Shown here piece by piece: positions 7,238 to 17,779 of a stretch of 64,000 nt of DNA; position 1 is the first letter of the stretch; each line of letters starts with the position of its first letter. This DNA is from Planctomycetota bacterium. GTDB taxonomy: Bacteria > Planctomycetota > Planctomycetia > Pirellulales > Lacipirellulaceae. Below the pieces are notes generated by a model. The model searched no databases, was not told the DNA's origin, and saw only the letters and a program-made list of their open reading frames with translations. Location: assembly GCA_024278955.1 (NCBI GenBank), contig JAJRSE010000106.1:1-64000 (forward strand), read 5' to 3'. The translations under genes were made by a program, and so were the position numbers.

Positions 7238-9116
7238 AATCTGCAGTAGCTCTGTCTTTCCTATTGCTTGCGTCGGTGCCAAGCTACGCCGATTCAGGAG
7301 TTGGCCCGAACGGCATTGATGCGACCGGTCTAATGCTTCCCAATGGCACCGTCTTGACTGGAGCCGGAATTGGAATTGGCCAAGTTGAAGGCCTTCGTCC
7401 AGGCAAGTCGACTATGGATGGCGGTCCAGATGACGCTACAAACTCCGCAAGTACTGTTGTCCCTGCTCAGGTTTATATGCGTACTGCCGTAGCGAACGCC
7501 AACGGCTTCAGGGTCAGAGACATCTTTGGCGTTGGCCATGCCCAACAGGTCGCCAGCGTGATGATTTCAACCGATAATATGGCCCCCGGTGTGGCCCCCG
7601 ATGCATTGCTTCATGCATCGGGATACGCAACAATTTCGACCAGCCAGCGCGACGCTGCCCTCACTGCGAACCACGTCGCGACAAGAAACAACGGCGATAT
7701 CTCCGCCATCAATATGAGCTTTCATATGGCGACAGAAGGATTCAACGAGCCAATTGACGGACGCTCTCATTTGAGCAGATTTGTCGATTGGTCCGCCGCC
7801 AAACACGATGTGCTCTATGTCGTTGCCGGCCGTGAAGAGTCGTTGCCGGCCGTGAAGACAATCAAGCCCCTGGCCCAGTTCCCACAGACAACTACAATGG
7901 CATCACTGTGGCAGGGTCGTCAAACGCAGGAGGCCAGGTATTCGATATTACCTGGGCTGGCAATGTCTACAATGAGGATGCCTTAGGCGACAGAGTGTCA
8001 ATCGATTTACTTGCACCTGCCACGTCAATCGATGTAGTGCAGCTTGGAGACGCTGTTGCTGAAGTAGGGGATGGCACGAGTTTTGCTGCACCGCATGTCA
8101 CTGGCGCAGTCGGGTTGTTACAGCAATACGCCAAGTTTCAGATCGACAACTCGGTTCCAAGATGGAACGCGCCAAATGCCCGGCGTCATGAAGTCATGAA
8201 AGCGATTCTTCTTAACTCCGCAGACAAGTTGAGTGGCGTTCACGGTTCCACGCGTACTATTTTGAACCAAAATGGGCTTCAATGGAATCAAACTTTAGCG
8301 CACGCTTCTTCGAATGTTCCACTCGATTTGGGAATGGGTGCCGGCCACTTGAATGTCAGCAATGCGTTGACCAATTTTGAACCCGGCGAATACGAGCCTG
8401 GTAACGTGCCGTTGATGGGATGGGACTACGGGTTTGTCGGTGGCGGCATTGCAGATTATGAATTCACCGAAACGTTGTCTGGTGATTCATGGGTCGCCAT
8501 TACACTGGCATGGGACCGAATCGTGGGAAAGACGGGCTCCAATAACACATATAATTTTGGAGACGAATTCTTTAACAACACGATCGACATGGAGCTAACG
8601 AATCTCGATTTGTATTTGATGCCTGCCAACTCAAATGATGTGAGCCAAGCGGTATTCAGGTCAACTGCCGACGCAGATAGCGTTGAACATATTTTTATGA
8701 AATTGGACGCGGGTCAAGGCGGAGACTATAAAATTCGCGTTGTAAACTCTGGAGGCGGAGAAGGCTTCGGACAAGAATTTGGCCTAGCGTGGTGGGCTGG
8801 AGAAATCACACCGGGCGACTTCGATGGTGATGGTGACTCAGACGGTGACGACCTGTCGCAATGGGAAGGCGACTTCGGACTCAACGGCAACAGCGACGCC
8901 GATAACGATGGCGATTCTGATGGAGCAGATTTCCTAGCTTGGCAAAGCGGCTTTACAGGCCCGGGAATGTTGACTGCTGGCTCGCAGGTCGTCCCCGAGC
9001 CAACGAGTTGGTTACTATGCCTGATGGCTTCCGCTTTACTTATGAACCGCCGAATGCGAGGATGCCGGGAAACAAAGGTTGTATTCACACTCTCAAATCG
9101 AGACGCCCAATTGTAG
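7234..9116 (+). pseudogene. Subtilisin-like (S8) protease with dockerin-like loops and PEP-CTERM, broken by a 20-bp duplication
   Basis: Frame 1 runs from ATG 7234 (signal peptide; putative catalytic His in GHAQQVAS, residue 102) to a stop at 7986. A second frame continues with GTSFAAPHVTG (catalytic Ser codon 8079-8081), acidic loops (GDFDGDGDSDGDD, DADNDGDSDGAD at about 8812-8935) and a C-terminal PEP-CTERM signal (VPEP at 8991-9002, then a hydrophobic stretch and Arg-rich tail). An exact 20-bp tandem duplication at 7819-7858 causes the shift. Removing one copy joins the frames into a continuous 620-aa protein with the normal subtilase order. The usual catalytic Asp position reads Glu (GQVEG) and the AAGN oxyanion segment reads VAGRED. 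If expressed as written, the first frame gives a 250-aa product without the Ser. It could be a pseudogene, a reversible off state or a sequence error. Confidence 0.85.
7819..7858 (+). repeat. Exact 20-bp tandem duplication causing the subtilase frameshift
   Basis: GTCGTTGCCGGCCGTGAAGA occurs twice back to back (7819-7838 and 7839-7858). Twenty is not a multiple of three, so the second copy shifts the frame by +2. With one copy the protein reads through VVAGREDNQAPG and GITVAGSS, as expected for a subtilase core. Confidence 0.95.
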
Positions 9117-9931: not shown

Positions 9932-10732
9932 ATGAGGAGTTTCATTTATTGCCTCGCTACGGTCGTTGCCGTTTCGGGATCGGCGGTTAATTCAGCCCAC
10001 GCTGAGAGCACAAACGAAAACAGGGCACAACAAATTGCTGGAAGCCTCAAAGAAAGCGGCCAGCTCAAGGACTATCGCGTCGGCGTCAAGTTTGAAGACG
10101 GCATCGCTTGGCTGACGGGCACCGTCACAAGTAGCCAGCAGCGTCAGGTTGCCGAGCAAGTCGCTCGCAGCAGCCCGGGCGTCAATCACGTCGTAAACAA
10201 GCTGGAAGTCGAGAACACCGAGGCGTTGGCGATCGAAGACCAAAACTTCGAAGTTGCTAGCAACTCGCCACAGCGGCAAGAAGCAAGCCGAGCGGGCAGA
10301 TCACGCTCTGGCACACCACGGCAACGTCGTGCGGCGCCCAAGCGTAGCAACAACATGCCCGTTCCTTATGCTCGGGCCGGTGGTGGTCGCAGAGCGCAGC
10401 CCGCGACTCAGAATCGTCAGGCTTCGTACCACCCCGGTGGAATGCCTAGCAGCGGACCAATGGGTGGCCCAATGCCTCAAGGCGGCGGAATGCCCGGTGC
10501 CACGGGACAGCCTGCAAGCTACGACAACCCACAAATGCCTGGCTATGCTTGGCCCACCTATGCGGCTCAGTCGAACTACGCAGCACTGACTTATCCTAAG
10601 CAGTACTCGCCCTCGGCTTGGCCCTACATTGGCCCCTTCTATCCTTATCCCCAAGTGCCACTCGGCTGGCGCAAGGTGACCTTAGAATGGGACGACGGCT
10701 GGTGGTTCCTCGACTTCAAAGACAACAAATAG
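9932..10732 (+). CDS. Exported BON-domain protein with Pro/Gly/Met-rich tail
   Basis: A strong AGGAGGGGG (9920-9928) precedes ATG 9932. The 266-aa product has a signal peptide (cleavage after NSAHA), then one BON domain (about residues 28-95) with the typical pattern of a buried IAWLTGTVTS strand and a GVNHVVNKLEV strand. BON domains are thought to bind phospholipid or other hydrophobic ligands in the periplasm or envelope. The second half is low complexity: an Arg/Ser/Gln-rich basic stretch (about 105-165), then GG, GM and PM-rich sequence and a Tyr/Pro-rich end. An intrinsic terminator-like hairpin follows. Likely a cell-envelope protein of its own transcript. Confidence 0.8.
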   Translation: MRSFIYCLATVVAVSGSAVNSAHAESTNENRAQQIAGSLKESGQLKDYRVGVKFEDGIAWLTGTVTSSQQRQVAEQVARSSPGVNHVVNKLEVENTEALAIEDQNFEVASNSPQRQEASRAGRSRSGTPRQRRAAPKRSNNMPVPYARAGGGRRAQPATQNRQASYHPGGMPSSGPMGGPMPQGGGMPGATGQPASYDNPQMPGYAWPTYAAQSNYAALTYPKQYSPSAWPYIGPFYPYPQVPLGWRKVTLEWDDGWWFLDFKDNK

Positions 10733-10807: not shown

Positions 10808-10885
10808 CGCGAGTTGTGGGTTGCGAGTCGCAAGTATCAAGTTCTTCTCGCAACGAGCGACTCACAACCCAAACCTCCACTGCTA
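10808..10885. repeat. Intergenic word repeat, GAGTTGTG/GAGTTGCGAG family
   Basis: GAGTTGTGGGTTGCGAG is followed about 30 bp later by CTCGCAAC and GACTCACAACCC, giving an imperfect inverted repeat. The same words recur at 38995-39068, 51402-51461 and more weakly at 44965 and 55560. The rest of the 10733-11068 gap holds nothing recognised. Confidence 0.6.
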
Positions 10886-11068
10886 GCACTCTGGCTCCTT
10901 TTTTTCCTCACAATCAGAATTACCCGCAAGTTCTGCCTAGATTCACACGATAACTCTTACATCAGCTCCGTAACGGTGCGACGGCCGAAGAGATTGCCAT
11001 CGCACGAGGTCAAGTCGATCACGAAGCTGCTCATCTGACTACTCGAAGGCTGGACAAAGGTGGATTCG

Positions 11069-11656
11069 ATGTCACGACCGAACCAATTCACATCGTCGGC
11101 GATTGCTGTTGTACTGGCAATCTGCTCGATGTCGACAAGCGGCTGTTACTGGGGTCTTGCTACGGCGGGACCAAGCCTACTGCCCTTTTCGATCCCAATC
11201 CCGGTAAGCCCTCTTCAGCAGAAGAGAAAAGAAGACCAATTTTGGCAGAAAGAACGCTACGACCGCGTGCCGATCCTCGGTCCGATTACCTCGGAAGGCG
11301 AAATCATCGCTCTCGATCCTCCTAGCGACGACGAAGTGATGCGAGCCCTAGAAAAAGCTCGACCCGTCCAAGGTGGCGTACCTTTCCTCCACGAACACAA
11401 CCGCAACAACGTGCGAATCGTGAAGGAAAAAATCTCTGACTACATCGATCCGCCCCGGGTCTATCCGATGATCGGACCGGCCCAGCAGCACCATGCCCAC
11501 TACAAATGCACGATCTACTACGAAGACGTGCGTCGAATCGGCTGGCCGATTCCTCACACCTTGCGAGACGAAGATTCCCAAGAAGTGATCTACGTCGACC
11601 ACAACCATCTCCACATGGTCGGCAACGTCGACACGGGTGCGACGAGCCAGTTTTAA
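11069..11656 (+). CDS. Small lipoprotein, planctomycete type
   Basis: The 195-aa protein starts at ATG 11069, with AAAGGTGG (11056-11063) placed 5 bp upstream. A GTG at 11060 would add three residues. Residues 5-30 form a lipoprotein signal ending in a lipobox (STSGC), so the mature protein should be lipid-anchored in the cell envelope. The mature part is rich in Pro and charged residues, with no repeats or enzyme motif; a His-rich stretch (QQHHAHYKC) lies in the middle and HNHLHMV near the end. The family is not recognised. It ends just before a very strong terminator, so it forms a single-gene unit. Confidence 0.75.
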   Translation: MSRPNQFTSSAIAVVLAICSMSTSGCYWGLATAGPSLLPFSIPIPVSPLQQKRKEDQFWQKERYDRVPILGPITSEGEIIALDPPSDDEVMRALEKARPVQGGVPFLHEHNRNNVRIVKEKISDYIDPPRVYPMIGPAQQHHAHYKCTIYYEDVRRIGWPIPHTLRDEDSQEVIYVDHNHLHMVGNVDTGATSQF

Positions 11657-11689: not shown

Positions 11690-11735
11690 AGGCTTGCCAA
11701 AGATCCATCGACGGAAATTTGGCAAGCCTGTTTTT
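11690..11735 (+). terminator. Strong intrinsic terminator
   Basis: AGGCTTGCCAAA (11690-11701) pairs perfectly with TTTGGCAAGCCT (11718-11729) and TTTTTCTT follows. This 12-bp stem with U-run closes the lipoprotein gene and separates it from the TPR-ExbBD cluster. Confidence 0.9.
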
Positions 11736-11769
11736 CTTGTTGGGGGGACACAACCAGCGAGAGACGACG

Positions 11770-13527
11770 ATGCGAACCCGCATTGCGATTAGCTTGATCT
11801 CCAGCGCCACGATTGTACTAACAATCGCTGCCGCCCATGCCGCTGAGGTAGGCTTCGACCAGGCGGCCAAGCTCTACCATCAAGGCCAATGGCAGCGTGC
11901 TGCCACGGCATTCGCTGCATGTGCCGAAACGGCCCCCGACCAAAAAAAACGTATCGAGGCTCATTTCTATCTGGGCGAAAGCCTGTTGCAATTGGAGAAA
12001 TACTCCAAAGCACGCGAGCACTACCGCTTGGTTCTAAAGCATCCTGCTGGCAAGCCTTATTTGCTCCGCGCATTATTCCGGATAGGAGAAGCCTCGTGGC
12101 TTGCCGGCGACCTGAGCAGCGGCGAACAATTGCTAACGCAATTTGTCTACAACTTCCCGCACGAGCCCTTGGCCGCCCAGGCAACCGCGTACCTGCGAGA
12201 AATCGCACAACAGGAACCAAGCCAACTGCCGCTTGCCAGCAAAGAACCCCCAGCAGAAGCTTCCGAAGAAAAAATACTCGACGAAGCCGCAGGCCTACAA
12301 CGCGAGGGACAGCACGACGCTGCCCTAGCGGCCTACCGCGAGCTGTTCGCTCAGCATCGCCACGGTAAAATTCATGCGGAAGCACTTCGGCGAGCGGCCC
12401 GACTGCACGCTCAACTGTCTCAATTCTCCGAATCAAGCCAGCTCTACCTTGAATTTCGAGCCAAGTACCCCGATTCGGTCCATACGGCCGAGGTAATCGC
12501 AGCCCAAGCCTGGCTCGACGTCCAGACGGGCGATTTTGCATCTGCCGAAACAAAGTTCCAGATTCTGCACGAAAACTTTTCCCAGAGCGCCCAGGCTCTC
12601 GAAGCCACCTATTGGTTGGCCCTTGCAGCAGCCGATAAGAAAGATAGCACCCTGGCGTCAACCTACGTCGATTGGTTGCTCGACATCCTCTCTCAAGCCC
12701 CCTCGGCAGAGAGAACCGACAAGAAGGCAAAGAAACAAGCGAATAAGCTCTGGGAACAAACGCTGTTATTAAAATGCCAGCTGGATGCGACCGAGAACCG
12801 TTGGCAAGAGGTTTTAGAACGACTCACCCAAGTCGGCGAAAAATTTGAACAAGGACCAAGAAAAACGCGAGCTTACTTCTGGCTAGCAGAAGCAAGTTAT
12901 CGAAGCTGGCTAGTCGAGGACAAGACTCAGAGCAGACAATTCAAAGAAGCACTCAGCAACTTTGATCGACTGGCAGAGCAAACCGCAAAGCAAAACACTG
13001 AAATCGAAGAACCGTGGACGGCCATCATCCCGCTGCGTCGAGCCCAGCTACGGTCGAGACGACAACAATGGACTGAGGTCTTAAAACTACTGAAAAACGT
13101 GGAACATGACTTTCCTGATTTTCCCCAACAGCACGAGGTCGACTACCTACGTGGGAGAGCCTATGCCGGACGAGGTGAAATGCCTCGGGCTCGGATCGCC
13201 TACGGTCGAGTCCTAGACAACCCTCAGGCAAAAGAGACCGAAACCGCAGCCGTGGCGCAGTGGATGATCGGCGACACTTTTTTCCATCAAAACGATTTCC
13301 CCCGCGCAAGACAAGCCTATCAAAAAGTCATCGACCGCCACGACCAACCCCAGTGGCAAGCCCGAGCCGCCTTGCAGGCAGGCAAATGCTTGGAGCGAGA
13401 ACATAACTGGCCCGCGGCAAGGGCACATTACTCGAAAGCACTCGATAAATGGCAAGGATCGACCTCCGAGTCGCAACTTCAAACAAGATTGAATTGGGCA
13501 AATCGTCAGACAACTCGTCAGCGGTAG
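11770..13527 (+). CDS. Periplasmic TPR protein, YbgF/CpoB-like, upstream of exbB
   Basis: ATG 11770 gives a signal peptide (cleavage after AAAHA) and a mature protein of about 560 residues made of TPR-type helix pairs: an A-x-LY-x-GQW-AA-F unit at about residues 32-60, then HFYLGESLLQLEKYSKA and many similar units to the C-terminus. The early part resembles YbgF/CpoB, which works beside Tol-Pal in other bacteria. It ends 45 bp before exbB/tolQ on the same strand, so a shared transcript is likely. From this context it may connect the motor proteins downstream with envelope or peptidoglycan partners, which is an inference. No catalytic motif is seen. An upstream in-frame start at 11719 lies inside the preceding terminator and is rejected. 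Confidence 0.82.
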   Translation: MRTRIAISLISSATIVLTIAAAHAAEVGFDQAAKLYHQGQWQRAATAFAACAETAPDQKKRIEAHFYLGESLLQLEKYSKAREHYRLVLKHPAGKPYLLRALFRIGEASWLAGDLSSGEQLLTQFVYNFPHEPLAAQATAYLREIAQQEPSQLPLASKEPPAEASEEKILDEAAGLQREGQHDAALAAYRELFAQHRHGKIHAEALRRAARLHAQLSQFSESSQLYLEFRAKYPDSVHTAEVIAAQAWLDVQTGDFASAETKFQILHENFSQSAQALEATYWLALAAADKKDSTLASTYVDWLLDILSQAPSAERTDKKAKKQANKLWEQTLLLKCQLDATENRWQEVLERLTQVGEKFEQGPRKTRAYFWLAEASYRSWLVEDKTQSRQFKEALSNFDRLAEQTAKQNTEIEEPWTAIIPLRRAQLRSRRQQWTEVLKLLKNVEHDFPDFPQQHEVDYLRGRAYAGRGEMPRARIAYGRVLDNPQAKETETAAVAQWMIGDTFFHQNDFPRARQAYQKVIDRHDQPQWQARAALQAGKCLEREHNWPAARAHYSKALDKWQGSTSESQLQTRLNWANRQTTRQR

Positions 13528-13572: not shown

Positions 13573-14376
13573 ATGCGAAATACTATTCCCTGGAATCGAG
13601 TCTGCTCGAAAACAAGCTTCTTCGGAACTTGGCTCGTGCTCGTTACCGGAGCCTCGACTTGTTTCGCTCAGCAATCGGAAGCAGGCGAGTTAATCCCGAC
13701 AAAAAGCCTCTGGGACATGCTCATCGCGGGTGGGCCTCTCTTGCTGCCAATCGTCGCCTGCTCGTTCGTGCTGTTGCTTGTGGTATTTGAACGCACATTA
13801 AGCCTGCGCCGCAGCCGGGTGGCACCCCGCCTGTTTGCCGAGCGGTTTTTGCTGCAAATCGGCGAAGGTGCTCTCAATCGAGACGAGGCACTCGACCGCT
13901 GCATCGAGAACGACAGCCTTGTAGCCAACGTCTTTGCTTCGGCAGTACGAAAGTGGGGCAAACCGGCTGTCGAGGTCGAGCAAGCCGTCCTCGACGAGGG
14001 CGAGCGGGCCGCCAACGACATGCGCCGATTCTTGCGTGTGATCAACGGCGTAGCCACCGTTTGCCCGCTGATGGGACTCTTAGGAACCGTCTGGGGAATG
14101 ATGGAGGCCTTTGAAGCAATCGCGGGCAGTAGCGCCATGGGTCGCCCCGAACTGCTAGCCGGAGGAATCGGCGGTGCCTTGCTTTCCACCGCCGCAGGGC
14201 TGTCGGTCGCCATACCGGCATTGATTCTCTACCTCTGGTTTACCGGCCGAGTTGACATGCTGGTCACGGAAATCGACCGCCACGGACAAAACCTAGTCCA
14301 CCGAATCTCAGCCGAAGCACTCGAAGAACGCCGCACCCGCCCCGCTCGCTCCACCAAAAACAAAAAGGCCGCGTAA
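13573..14376 (+). CDS. ExbB/TolQ-type proton channel subunit
   Basis: A 267-aa MotA/TolQ/ExbB family protein. It has an N-terminal signal-like segment (to about residue 33) before the first core membrane helix (about 50-70: LLLPIVACSFVLLLVVFE), then a cytoplasmic region and the conserved C-terminal helices with GLLGTVWGMMEAFEAIA and GGALLSTAAGLSVAIPALI. These form the pentameric channel around ExbD that turns the proton gradient into force on a TonB- or TolA-type protein. The extra N-terminal export-like segment is common in ExbB forms of other phyla. It lies between the TPR gene and exbD. Confidence 0.92.
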   Translation: MRNTIPWNRVCSKTSFFGTWLVLVTGASTCFAQQSEAGELIPTKSLWDMLIAGGPLLLPIVACSFVLLLVVFERTLSLRRSRVAPRLFAERFLLQIGEGALNRDEALDRCIENDSLVANVFASAVRKWGKPAVEVEQAVLDEGERAANDMRRFLRVINGVATVCPLMGLLGTVWGMMEAFEAIAGSSAMGRPELLAGGIGGALLSTAAGLSVAIPALILYLWFTGRVDMLVTEIDRHGQNLVHRISAEALEERRTRPARSTKNKKAA

Positions 14377-14447: not shown

Positions 14448-14879
14448 ATGCCTCTCAAAACCCACCAAGACGACCAACCCACGCTCAACATGACGCCGAT
14501 GATCGACGTCGTGTTTCTGCTGCTCATATTCTTTATGGTTGCCACACGGTTTGCCGAGATGGAACGCGACATCGAGCTCGAGCTACCCGAGGTGGCCACC
14601 GCCCAGTCGCTAACGACTGCCCCCAAACAACGCGTCGTCATGGTGCTTGACGACGGCAGCGTAACCCTCGATCGCAACGAAGTGACCCTACCAGAACTCA
14701 CCCGAAAACTTTCGGCTGCCAAACGCGAGTATCCAAAGCTAAGCGTTGTGATCCGAGGAGACGCATCCTGTGCCTTCCAGCACGTCGCAGCTACGCTCGC
14801 CGCTTGCAAAGAAGCCCGCGTCTCCGATCTAGGCATCACGGTACGAATCGCCCAGTCAACAAAAAATCCAACCCGTTAG
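14448..14879 (+). CDS. ExbD/TolR-type motor subunit
   Basis: A 143-aa protein with the ExbD/TolR layout: short cytoplasmic start, the signature NMTPMIDVVFLLLIFFMV (about residues 14-31) whose Asp is the proton-carrying residue in this family, and a periplasmic domain (about 45-140) with VVIRGD-like and AACKEARVSDLGI elements. Partner of the ExbB subunit 71 bp upstream. AGGAGG overlapping its end (14880-14885) points to the next gene. The gene is bracketed by inverted copies of an AT-rich word repeat. Confidence 0.92.
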   Translation: MPLKTHQDDQPTLNMTPMIDVVFLLLIFFMVATRFAEMERDIELELPEVATAQSLTTAPKQRVVMVLDDGSVTLDRNEVTLPELTRKLSAAKREYPKLSVVIRGDASCAFQHVAATLAACKEARVSDLGITVRIAQSTKNPTR

Positions 14880-14885
14880 AGGAGG

Positions 14886-14914
14886 TGGGATGTTTGATGT
14901 TTGATTGTTGATGG
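14886..14914. repeat. ATCAAACATC word repeat, inverted copy at the start of the TonB-like gene
   Basis: GGGATGTTTGATGTTTGATT is the reverse complement of the repeat before exbD. The likely TTG start of the TonB-like gene (14901) lies inside it, and two out-of-frame ATG codons within it (14890, 14897) are quickly followed by stops. Confidence 0.7.
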
Positions 14915-16811
14915 AAACAAATCAGACGCCAAACATCGGCAATTACCCATCAGCAATCACCCCTCCATCTTAGCCTTCTGGGGACTTACGTCTTCCACTT
15001 GGATTGTGCTTTGGGCGGTACTCGGCGCAATCACGGTGCTGTTGGTTGTTTTGCTGCGCACTCGCTGGTCGGGGGCTCGGCCATTGCGCAAGTGTGCAAT
15101 TCTCTCGCTTTGGGTCCACGTGCTCCTAGCTTTCGCTGCAACCACGGTGCGAATTATGAGCGGTGCTCCCGAATTGGGCTCCGACCAACCCATCCGTGTC
15201 ACGGTAAGAACCTTTGTAGAAGAGGCGTCGCCAGAAGAACCCAAAGAAAAAATCTCGCCCGTCCAAAAGCAGCCAACCGAAGCCGCGATGGTCGTCTCTA
15301 AACCAGAGCCGCAAGCCCCTCGGGAACCCGAACCACCCGAAACCGCCCCCGAAGTTGCCGCCCCTGAGAAGCCAGAGGAGATCCTAGAGCAAGTTGTCGA
15401 AGCTGAAACCAAGCCCAAACCGACAGAACCTGCTCCGCCGCTAGAAGCCCCTTCGCTACTAGCTACCCCTCTCCCCAAGCAAGTAGCTGAAACCCAACCT
15501 CCCTCAGAAACCACGGCCGAAACGCTCCCCAACGATCTGGATTCTGTGGCCAAAGATTCCGAGGCCGAAGACTCAGCAGCCAAGGAAATCGAAAAGGCCA
15601 AAGAAGAACGACAAACCCAAATCGCCGAAACAGAATCCGCAACCAAGCCGCCCTCCCCCGCCGAACCTACACCGCCCACGATCTACAACGACCGCTTCGC
15701 CAAAAATCGCGATCAGCTTGCCGAGCGTCGTGGCGGCAGCCCACAAACCGAACGCGCCGTCCGTGCTGCCCTAGGCTGGCTCGCCTCGGCACAATCAAGA
15801 AACGGTGGCTGGGATGCCTCAAAGTTCGGTGCCGGCAAAGAAGAAATCGTCTTAAAGCAAAACCGCAACGGCGCCGGAGCGAACGCCGATACCGGCATCA
15901 CCGGCCTGGCGATACTCGCATTTCTTGGTTCGGGGAACACGCAACTCGCAGGACCCTATGCGCGCGAGGTGGCCAACGGCTTGGAATACCTACGCCAACA
16001 TCAACGTGCCGACGGCGCCCTCTATGGCAAGGCTCAGCTCTTCGCACAAATGTACTGCCATTCGATGGCGACCTTTGCCGTCTGCGAAGCCTACGCCATC
16101 ACCGGAGACGTCCGCCTGGAACCGATGGCTCGCGCCGCGGTTCGCTATGGCCTCTCAATGCAGCATCCGACCGACGGCGGATGGCGTTATCGACGCGGAC
16201 ACACCGGCGACACCAGCCAACTCGGCTGGCAGCTCATGGCACTCAAAAGTGCCCAACTCGCAGGCATCGAAATCCCGCAGGTCACCTGGACTCGAATCGA
16301 CCGATTTCTCCGCCGAGTCCGCCGCGGCTCAGCCGGAGGACTCGCTTCGTATCGCCCCGATGGTCCGCCCAGCCGAACGATGACCGCCGAGGCCCTATTC
16401 TGCCGCCACCTTTTACGGTCGAGCGAAGCAAACCCGTTTGGACAGACTTTGACAGACCAAGCTTCGATATTTGAGGCCCTCGATTCGATTTCGGAAAAAC
16501 TGCCCAGCACTTCGCGTCGCAACTTGTACTATTGGTACTATGCCAACCTGGCGCTGCATTATGGCCAAAACCAGTCCGACGAAGCCGAAGCCGCCTGGCA
16601 AGACTGGAACCATGCCCTAACCACCACGCTGCTTGCCACCCAAACCGACAATGGAAGCTGGAGCGAGACAACCGTCTGGGGCGGATATGGCGGCCGAGTC
16701 TACACCACGGCCCTCTCGGCCATGTGCCTAGAAGTCTACTACCGCTATAGCCCAGCCGAGGGCCCCAGCGAGGTCGCCGGACGCAAGGGCTGGCACGCCG
16801 TACATCGATAG
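14901..16811 (+). CDS. TonB-like transducer fused to a prenyltransferase/squalene-cyclase-type toroid
   Basis: This 636-aa protein has two N-terminal membrane helices (about 32-52 and 64-82). The second contains SLWVH (S69, H73), matching the S-x3-H pattern of the TonB membrane helix, whose His is needed for coupling to ExbBD. A Pro/Glu/Ala-rich linker follows (about 105-265), as in TonB. Instead of a TonB C-terminal domain, residues about 280-625 form alpha/alpha-toroid repeats (LGWLASAQSRNGGWD, GLEYLRQHQRADGALYG, TDGGWRYRRG, QTDNGSWSETTVWGG) like prenyltransferase/squalene-oxidase repeats. The DxDD and DCTAE motifs of true cyclases are not seen, so binding rather than catalysis is likelier. 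The start is uncertain: no ATG is in frame; TTG 14901 is 15 bp after AGGAGG and GTG 15006 is an alternative. Its placement after exbB-exbD suggests it is driven by them. Confidence 0.85.
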   Translation: MIVDGNKSDAKHRQLPISNHPSILAFWGLTSSTWIVLWAVLGAITVLLVVLLRTRWSGARPLRKCAILSLWVHVLLAFAATTVRIMSGAPELGSDQPIRVTVRTFVEEASPEEPKEKISPVQKQPTEAAMVVSKPEPQAPREPEPPETAPEVAAPEKPEEILEQVVEAETKPKPTEPAPPLEAPSLLATPLPKQVAETQPPSETTAETLPNDLDSVAKDSEAEDSAAKEIEKAKEERQTQIAETESATKPPSPAEPTPPTIYNDRFAKNRDQLAERRGGSPQTERAVRAALGWLASAQSRNGGWDASKFGAGKEEIVLKQNRNGAGANADTGITGLAILAFLGSGNTQLAGPYAREVANGLEYLRQHQRADGALYGKAQLFAQMYCHSMATFAVCEAYAITGDVRLEPMARAAVRYGLSMQHPTDGGWRYRRGHTGDTSQLGWQLMALKSAQLAGIEIPQVTWTRIDRFLRRVRRGSAGGLASYRPDGPPSRTMTAEALFCRHLLRSSEANPFGQTLTDQASIFEALDSISEKLPSTSRRNLYYWYYANLALHYGQNQSDEAEAAWQDWNHALTTTLLATQTDNGSWSETTVWGGYGGRVYTTALSAMCLEVYYRYSPAEGPSEVAGRKGWHAVHR

Positions 16812-17069
16812 CAAGGCCTTCAGGCTGTAGGGATTAGGCTAGAGAAAAGGGCTGAACCTTCTTTCGGCCCTTCCAAGTCAACAACTTCTATCGCCTTCCA
16901 AGCCAAAAGTCCTCCCTACCCTGGTTTGACTTGCCACTTGAAGCCAGTAGAATTGAAAGGTGTCGCTAATCGCCGAAAGTGCCAATTGCTGAAGTGTTAG
17001 CGCTGACAAGCTTTATCTGAGCCGCGACGGCGATTGCTCGCAGCTCACGGTTTTACAACAGAATTCATC

Positions 17070-17333
17070 ATGCCCACAATTCTTGCTATTGGTTTTCCTG
17101 GCCTTCCCGAAATGATGATCATAGGCCTCGTGGTTCTTCTCCTTTTTGGTAGCCGCCTGCCTTCGGTGATGCGGTCGCTAGGCGTTGGGATCACCGAATT
17201 CAAAAAGGGCATCAACGGCGAAATCGACGCCGACGGACAGCCTTCCTCCGACTCTGACGATGCCGCGATCGAAGAGCAGGGAAAATCGGATTCTAAAGAG
17301 TCGCAAACTTCAAGCCATTCGACTTCGGTCTAG
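17070..17333 (+). CDS. Twin-arginine translocase subunit TatA
   Basis: An 87-aa TatA/E protein: short periplasmic end, one membrane helix (about residues 13-29, EMMIIGLVVLLLFGSRLP), the conserved FG hinge followed by SRLPSVMRSLGVGITEFKKG as amphipathic helix, and a polar acidic tail. TatA oligomers form the export path for folded proteins with twin-Arg signals. Start at ATG 17070 gives the family length; an in-frame upstream codon at 17034 is not needed. A second TatA/B-like gene begins 17 bp after its stop. No tatC lies in the window. Tat-type signals occur nearby on the FAD oxidoreductase and the Gfo/Idh/MocA protein. Confidence 0.9.
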   Translation: MPTILAIGFPGLPEMMIIGLVVLLLFGSRLPSVMRSLGVGITEFKKGINGEIDADGQPSSDSDDAAIEEQGKSDSKESQTSSHSTSV

Positions 17334-17350
17334 CATTGGGTGGCAATGCG

Positions 17351-17779
17351 ATGTCTTATCTAATGTACGACAGGGCTTTGCTGGCCTTTGGCTTCAGCCC
17401 CGGCCCTCCCGAGATGCTTTTGCTGCTGGTCATTGCCCTGCTGCTCTATGGCGGCAAGCTACCCGAGATGGCACGCACCTGGGGAAAAACGCTCGCCGAA
17501 TTTCGCCGTAGCCTCTCTGGCATCCAGCGAGAATTCAACGATGCCATGTACACTTCTACCGAGCAGCTAACTTACGAGCCTGAGAACGATCCGTACACAA
17601 GCGAGTCGACTGACGAAACCAAGGGTTACGAAGAAGCATTGCAAAACGATCCCCCGCAAGACAACCTCGACCAAGACGACTCTTCAACAAACACCTCGCC
17701 CGAAGACCCGCCCTCGACCGACTCAGAAGCAGACGAGGAACTTTCCTCCGAAAAGCCTTCACTTACCGACTCCGACTAG
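17351..17779 (+). CDS. Second TatA/TatB-like protein
   Basis: ATG 17351 opens a 142-aa protein with one membrane helix (about residues 20-35, PEMLLLLVIALLLYGGKLP), an amphipathic helix (LPEMARTWGKTLAEFRRSLSGIQREFNDA) and a long acidic, Ser/Asp/Glu-rich tail. The hinge residue before the Gly is Tyr instead of the usual Phe. Its longer amphipathic helix and tail are more TatB-like, so this may be the TatB partner of the upstream TatA, but the assignment to A or B cannot be settled by eye. An in-frame TTG at 17336 is less likely than the ATG. Cotranscription with tatA is likely. Confidence 0.8.
   Translation: MSYLMYDRALLAFGFSPGPPEMLLLLVIALLLYGGKLPEMARTWGKTLAEFRRSLSGIQREFNDAMYTSTEQLTYEPENDPYTSESTDETKGYEEALQNDPPQDNLDQDDSSTNTSPEDPPSTDSEADEELSSEKPSLTDSD

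Follow-up and report, generated by a model that had tools for sequence, protein, structure and literature searches.

How energy from the proton gradient is delivered to the outer membrane is known for two related transducer heads, those of TonB and TolA, to which a predicted von Willebrand A (vWA) head has been added since 2025. In the window analyzed here, a stretch of 64,000 nucleotides from a member of the Planctomycetota, one gene encodes a TonB-like membrane anchor and linker that lead into a toroid of the terpene-cyclase type, next to genes for ExbB and ExbD. The question is what such a toroid does on a motor-binding arm. We consider it likely that the protein is an envelope force transducer driven by the proton motive force, which is built like TonB or TolA and carries the toroid as its output head; docking, force and partner are inferred. 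The source genome comprises 4.6 Mb in 146 contigs, and its nearest named relatives belong to the Pirellulales, for example Bythopirellula and Adhaeretor; the culturable Bythopirellula polymerisocia and Adhaeretor mobilis also possess the toroid locus.

Architecture and coupling elements of the toroid protein

The full-length AlphaFold model of the protein contains two helices (residues 31-53 and 61-82), followed by disorder and by a toroid extending to residue ~615. The model agrees with the original prediction, which had proposed two N-terminal helices with S69-x3-H73 in the second, a Pro/Glu-rich linker (mostly disordered in the model) and a terpene-cyclase-type alpha/alpha toroid; the modelled toroid has squalene-hopene cyclase (SHC) as its best fold match. 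The two genes upstream, predicted to encode ExbB and ExbD, indeed match the Pfam families MotA/TolQ/ExbB and ExbD/TolR (Table 1). In the toroid protein itself, Pfam detects only SQHop_cyclase_C, at residues 280-451 (E 2.7e-9). The exact start of the gene is uncertain, since the reading frame has no ATG ahead of the second helix and an AGGAGG is located at 14880-14885; the start region (14885-14920) contains the repeats TGTTTGAT/TGTTTGATTGTTGATG and out-of-frame ATGs after the AGGAGG.

Table 1 Features of the toroid locus (positions in the window)
Feature	Position	Strand	Evidence or remark
Secreted BON-domain protein	9932..10732	+	PF04972, E 7.9e-14
Putative lipoprotein, lipobox STSGC, no Pfam family	11060..11656	+	Relatives upstream of TPR
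TPR protein, YbgF/CpoB-like, signal peptide	11719..13527	+	NCBIfam TIGR02795
ExbB/TolQ-type motor subunit	13573..14376	+	PF01618, E 7.7e-28
ExbD/TolR-type motor subunit	14448..14879	+	PF02472, E 5.9e-30
Likely toroid-headed force transducer, whole gene	14901..16811	+	636 aa, TTG start
Helix 1, residues 31-53	14991..15059	+	AlphaFold
Helix 2, residues 61-82, motor-binding membrane helix (binding inferred)	15081..15146	+	AlphaFold
S69-x3-H73, Ser-His half of SHLS motif	15105..15119	+	Orthologue conservation
Pro/Glu-rich, mostly disordered linker, residues 84-256	15150..15668	+	AlphaFold
Putative D-box (motor box), residues 97-104, PIRVTVRT	15189..15212	+	Alternating hydrophobic strand pattern, orthologues
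Alpha6/alpha6 toroid, residues 257-615, QW motifs, no DxDD	15669..16745	+	AlphaFold
TatA-family protein, downstream neighbour	17034..17333	+	PF02416
Second TatA-family protein	17336..17779	+	PF02416

Helix 1 is followed by a basic loop, RTRWSGARPLRK, which is conserved in the orthologues and presumably cytoplasmic. The positive charge of this loop between the helices fits a predicted topology with the N-terminus outside, the loop inside and the toroid in the periplasm. In helix 2, H73 is present in all 39 aligned orthologues and S69 in 92% of them, being replaced by Ala in one clade (L028, L031, L036), while K64 and C65 are each found in 97%. A lack of conservation of S69 and H73 had been named beforehand as an outcome that would refute the prediction, and the pair withstands this test. 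The mechanism of the SHLS motif and of the D-box has been described previously (PMC12215075, PMC10907165, PMC12204202). Ser16 and His20 of E. coli TonB touch Ser34 and Trp38 of ExbB, and Ser18 and His22 of TolA touch Ser28 and Trp32 of TolQ (PMC12215075). Judged from these E. coli cryo-EM structures, the Ser/His pair would touch ExbB and not, as in the original prediction, ExbD. The full motif continues as His-x6-Leu-x3-Ser, and A80 and R84 stand in the place of this Leu and Ser, which are less conserved in TonB (PMC12215075). A Pfam search with the anchor alone returned no TonB or TolA match, which is expected for a single helix and leaves homology unproven, and no useful match came from a PDB profile search with the anchor. 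Presence of the anchor in non-toroid proteins of the source genome was rejected, as the toroid protein itself is the sole match with a significant E-value.

In the full-length model, the pLDDT of the linker is below 50 at residues 84-100, 111-135 and 143-224, and 70 linkers of toroid proteins have a median content of 10% Pro and 18% Asp/Glu. The linker also harbors a putative D-box, found in addition to what the original prediction had observed. Its sequence QPIRVTV resembles QPISVTM of E. coli TonB, the strand (residues 43-49) that is captured by the ExbD dimer, with binding at about 19 uM (PMC10907165), and its Ile lies at +25 from His73, the same spacing as between His20 and Ile45 of TonB (PMC10907165, PMC12215075). 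The alternating hydrophobic strand pattern is found at this place in 36 of the 39 orthologues, 22 of which have the first hydrophobic residue exactly at +25 from the His; the controls give 27/274 (10%) for other linker windows and 23% for shuffles. The pattern is present in 11/27 proteins from other clades (shuffled 23%) and in 22/45 paralogues (shuffled 39%). This signal is only modestly above the shuffled expectation, so the D-box is well supported for the Pirellulales orthologue group alone. As far as sequence can tell, the requirements of a TonB-type D-box are met in the toroid protein, and there are no data on ExbD binding.

The motor and the conserved locus

The residues important in the motor are well preserved. 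S64, P165, T172, T206 and P215 of ExbB, which correspond to S28, P138, T145, T178 and P187 of TolQ, are found in 39/39 sequences, and the membrane Asp of ExbD (D20) in 40/40. ExbB S64 matches the TonB-contacting Ser, whereas the Trp position (Trp38; TolQ Trp32) is occupied by Leu/Val. With the Thr ring, both Pro residues, the ExbD Asp and the ExbB Ser invariant and the Trp not, the motor looks competent with one contact changed.

The conserved gene order reads BON protein, lipoprotein, TPR, ExbB, ExbD, toroid, TatA, TatA, and the locus is thus larger than initially described, with the BON and lipoprotein genes upstream and the TatA genes downstream also conserved. In all 33 loci for which 3 kb or more of upstream sequence is available, ExbB and ExbD lie upstream of the toroid gene in the same order and on the same strand; orthologues widely found away from exbBD would have spoken against the prediction. 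The TPR gene is located upstream of ExbB in 26/33 loci, and its product scores 120 bits against TIGR02795 (tol_pal_ybgF; cut-off 90). Relatives of the lipoprotein are found upstream of TPR in 16 of 20 testable loci, and BON relatives in 14/14 loci in which the lipoprotein is present and the sequence extends >900 bases further upstream. Gaps of 22-72 bases separate the genes from the lipoprotein through the toroid gene, and this tight spacing is consistent with an operon. The BON gene is possibly a transcription unit of its own, with a terminator-like hairpin at 10882.

The lipoprotein family shows strict synteny with the motor genes, and most of its members have (S/T)GC followed by a conserved P-x-P-(V/I)-(S/T)-P segment. 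The lipoprotein is a candidate envelope partner of the toroid protein. Downstream, 24/33 loci have a Tat homologue close to the 3' end. Most orthologous loci continue after the toroid gene with the two TatA-family genes, for a reason that remains unexplained. Upstream of the locus, 7908-9116 encodes what looks like the C-terminal half of a subtilisin, bearing dockerin-like Asp/Gly repeats and a tail similar to PEP-CTERM, and may belong to a larger or interrupted gene.

The TonB-type anchor and D-box would also be compatible with a TonB-like protein whose unusual head energizes TonB-dependent outer-membrane receptors, and receptors do exist in some genomes of the genus, including the source genome. 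The locus contains no receptor gene, however, and on contig C77 of the source genome a receptor gene lies next to a separate TonB gene, whose product carries a TonB_C domain. The anchor profile detects 150/198 genomes of the order and 12/13 of the same genus, yet profile searches of these 13 genomes, mostly drafts, gave no match for the TonB-receptor Plug in five and none for TonB_C in seven. Moreover, a genome assembled as one contig (G397, 96% complete) gave no TonB_C, Plug or TolB_N match in profile searches and keeps the complete lipoprotein-TPR-ExbB-ExbD-toroid-TatA-TatA locus (L182). We regard an energizer of receptors as highly improbable; the toroid system probably does not serve TonB receptors, with the caveat that absence rests on profile searches of mostly draft genomes. 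The same caveat applies to the TolB_N domain, which profile searches did not find in 20 relatives, again mostly drafts, so that its absence is unproven. Given the lack of TolB_N matches in these genomes, the proposed force transducer likely performs an energized envelope function comparable to that of Tol-Pal.

The toroid head and its relatives across the phylum

Modelled alone, the toroid reaches a pLDDT of 91.7 and a pTM of 0.91 and is composed of six helical hairpins. Squalene-hopene cyclases rank first in fold comparison (Z 25, rmsd 3.1-3.6 A, ~290 residues), with the sugar-acting toroids AprG, cellobiose 2-epimerase and GH76 closely behind, and an SHC is also at the top of the PDB sequence profile search (1gsz, E 2e-16). 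The likeness to SHC and class II terpene cyclases consists of the alpha/alpha toroid and the QW motifs, which are found in the head. In contrast to SHC, the protein has a single toroid without DxDD and with another set of conserved residues, and is predicted to lie in the periplasm, tethered by a helix that binds the motor. Two identities were rejected for the head: an alpha-2-macroglobulin thioester domain, with GCxEQ missing in 48/48 toroids, and an active terpene cyclase, with DxDD, the class II cyclase acid, missing in this protein and in 47/48 toroids.

Among 48 diverse toroids, the conserved residues (Y130, H132, E141, D182, W188, Y288, Y291, Y292, W314 and N315 in the numbering of the toroid analysis) gather where the inner helices begin, which in toroid enzymes is the site of the cavity. 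This clustering, together with the fold matches, would suit a membrane-tethered periplasmic enzyme acting on terpenoids or sugars, whose ExbBD neighborhood reflects shared regulation or delivery and not force. The lack of DxDD weighs against a cyclase, and an enzyme would account neither for the His that is invariant in the membrane helix, nor for a D-box spaced as in TonB, nor for the adjacency of ExbBD in every locus counted; we consider it unlikely. The conserved putative cavity could also belong to a sensor, in which ligand binding by the periplasmic toroid would control the gating of the ExbBD proton channel or send a signal inward without any pulling. The positive charge of the inner loop that joins the helices would be in line with such a role, as would the proposal that the motion of the TonB/TolA helix itself gates the motor (PMC12215075). 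However, the locus encodes no cytoplasmic output domain or regulator and the long Pro-rich linker suits a reach across the periplasm, which makes a sensor very unlikely.

Relatives detected with a toroid profile are present in 326/392 Planctomycetota genomes, commonly several in each. Among 80 toroid proteins of other clades and paralogues, taken from these relatives, 67 have an SxxxH membrane helix before the linker and toroid, and three more have AxxxH; the helix is kept while the remaining N-terminus varies. Of 702 other membrane segments predicted in the same sequences, 1.6% contain SxxxH, and this background still counts two genuine TonB proteins and one orthologue that is truncated. The 80 proteins are related and do not represent 80 independent events. 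Taken with the invariance of H73 in the orthologues, these frequencies exclude chance. The arrangement is not confined to the protein in the window: toroid paralogues throughout the phylum bear the same type of anchor, many without adjacent exbBD, which is absent from the fetched flank for 44 of the 67 SxxxH proteins. In a plasmid collection, the search for orthologues recovered nothing beyond distant SHC and a single gene on a planctomycete plasmid.

Other clades show variations of the locus. In Planctomycetales (L086-L097), exbD directly precedes the toroid gene and exbB was not found in the flank of nearly all loci; the motor partner of this ExbD is encoded elsewhere or has diverged. In distant planctomycete classes (L100, L104, L118), a TolB-type PD40 propeller precedes the anchor, and the gene follows TPR-ExbB-ExbD. 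Giant proteins are encoded after motor genes at L100:3656-7903, L104:1818-6380, L118:2984-7627, L120:1012-4821 and L124:580-5676. In these proteins, an N-terminal membrane helix is joined to a propeller-like region (PD40 by Pfam in three), a pair of membrane helices that carry SxxxH or AxxxH, a linker and the toroid, and they may represent a fused Tol-like system. Loci of a second type (L109 on G000:C94, and L183 in G397) contain a gene for a distant toroid-like protein (573 and 551 aa) that lacks the SxxxH anchor; genes for a membrane protein, ExbB and two ExbD come after it. In addition, L176 (G000:C132:22500-32000) and L180 (G397) contain TPR-ExbB-ExbD-ExbD, resembling the vWA-transducer locus of PVC bacteria; no vWA gene was identified within the stretch read.

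Proposed mode of action and comparison with known systems

In the force transducer that we favor, the Ser69/His73 helix would dock on ExbB, and the D-box strand just past the membrane would be captured by the periplasmic ExbD dimer. The Pro-rich linker would then transmit the pull to the toroid, which may use its conserved cavity or surface to grip a partner in the periplasm or outer membrane; the lipoprotein, TPR protein and BON protein of the same locus are candidate partners. According to the original prediction, the toroid may bind an isoprenoid, a peptide or a glycan. The original prediction of a force transducer with a toroid output is supported by H73/S69, the D-box, the constant ExbBD neighborhood and the motor residues. 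These, like the architecture and the locus, are read directly from the sequences; docking, force and partner are deduced from them, in the absence of ligand or phenotype data. A broader proposal, for and against which we see about even chances, is that toroid-headed proton-driven transducers exist phylum-wide in multiple copies, most with the Ser-His helix, rely partly on motors of their own and partly on motors shared in trans, and together do the envelope work that falls to Tol-Pal and TonB in other bacteria.

If true, a third, unrelated head would be added to those of the known transducers, and the motor plus arm would be a module that is fitted with different tools. Planctomycetota would own an energized envelope machine where TonB is patchy and TolB_N was not found in the relatives searched. 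Very abundant proteins, annotated merely as prenyltransferase/squalene oxidase repeat proteins, would gain a functional context, and S69, H73, the D-box and ExbD D20 are exact residues for tests.

The system shares with TonB/TolA and ExbBD/TolQR the Ser-x3-His inner-membrane anchor, the putative D-box at +25, the Pro-rich linker, the motor genes alongside and the conserved motor residues. It differs in its C-terminal domain, a toroid in place of the TonB_C/TolA beta-alpha domain, and in an extra helix before the anchor, which lacks the Leu-Ser half of SHLS. With Tol-Pal (TolQRA-TolB-Pal-CpoB), it has in common a motor, a transducer, a YbgF/CpoB-like TPR protein and a lipoprotein, as well as a TolB-type propeller, fused before the anchor in other planctomycete classes. 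Unlike Tol-Pal, it has a toroid head and no TolB_N was detected in the 20 relatives, and its lipoprotein is without a Pal/OmpA domain, as judged from the lack of a Pfam match.

The nearest described parallel is the class of vWA-headed transducers predicted in 2025 in PVC bacteria, with a TMH, a linker and a non-TonB head, whose genes sit after TPR, tolQ-like and tolR-like genes (PMC12204202). Both systems place a non-TonB head on a TMH and linker in the same kind of locus. The vWA transducers have a von Willebrand A fold and two tolR genes, whereas the toroid system has a toroid and one exbD, and its locus is flanked by lipoprotein, BON protein and Tat genes, unlike the vWA locus (PMC12204202). 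The toroid class is not mentioned in that study (PMC12204202), and, in agreement with the original statement that such an arrangement is not known to have been described, we found no paper describing one among the open-access literature. The toroid protein is proposed to work like TonB, TolA and the vWA transducers and stands outside all three classes because its head differs. The toroid-headed transducer looks like an undescribed class of envelope force-transmitting protein.
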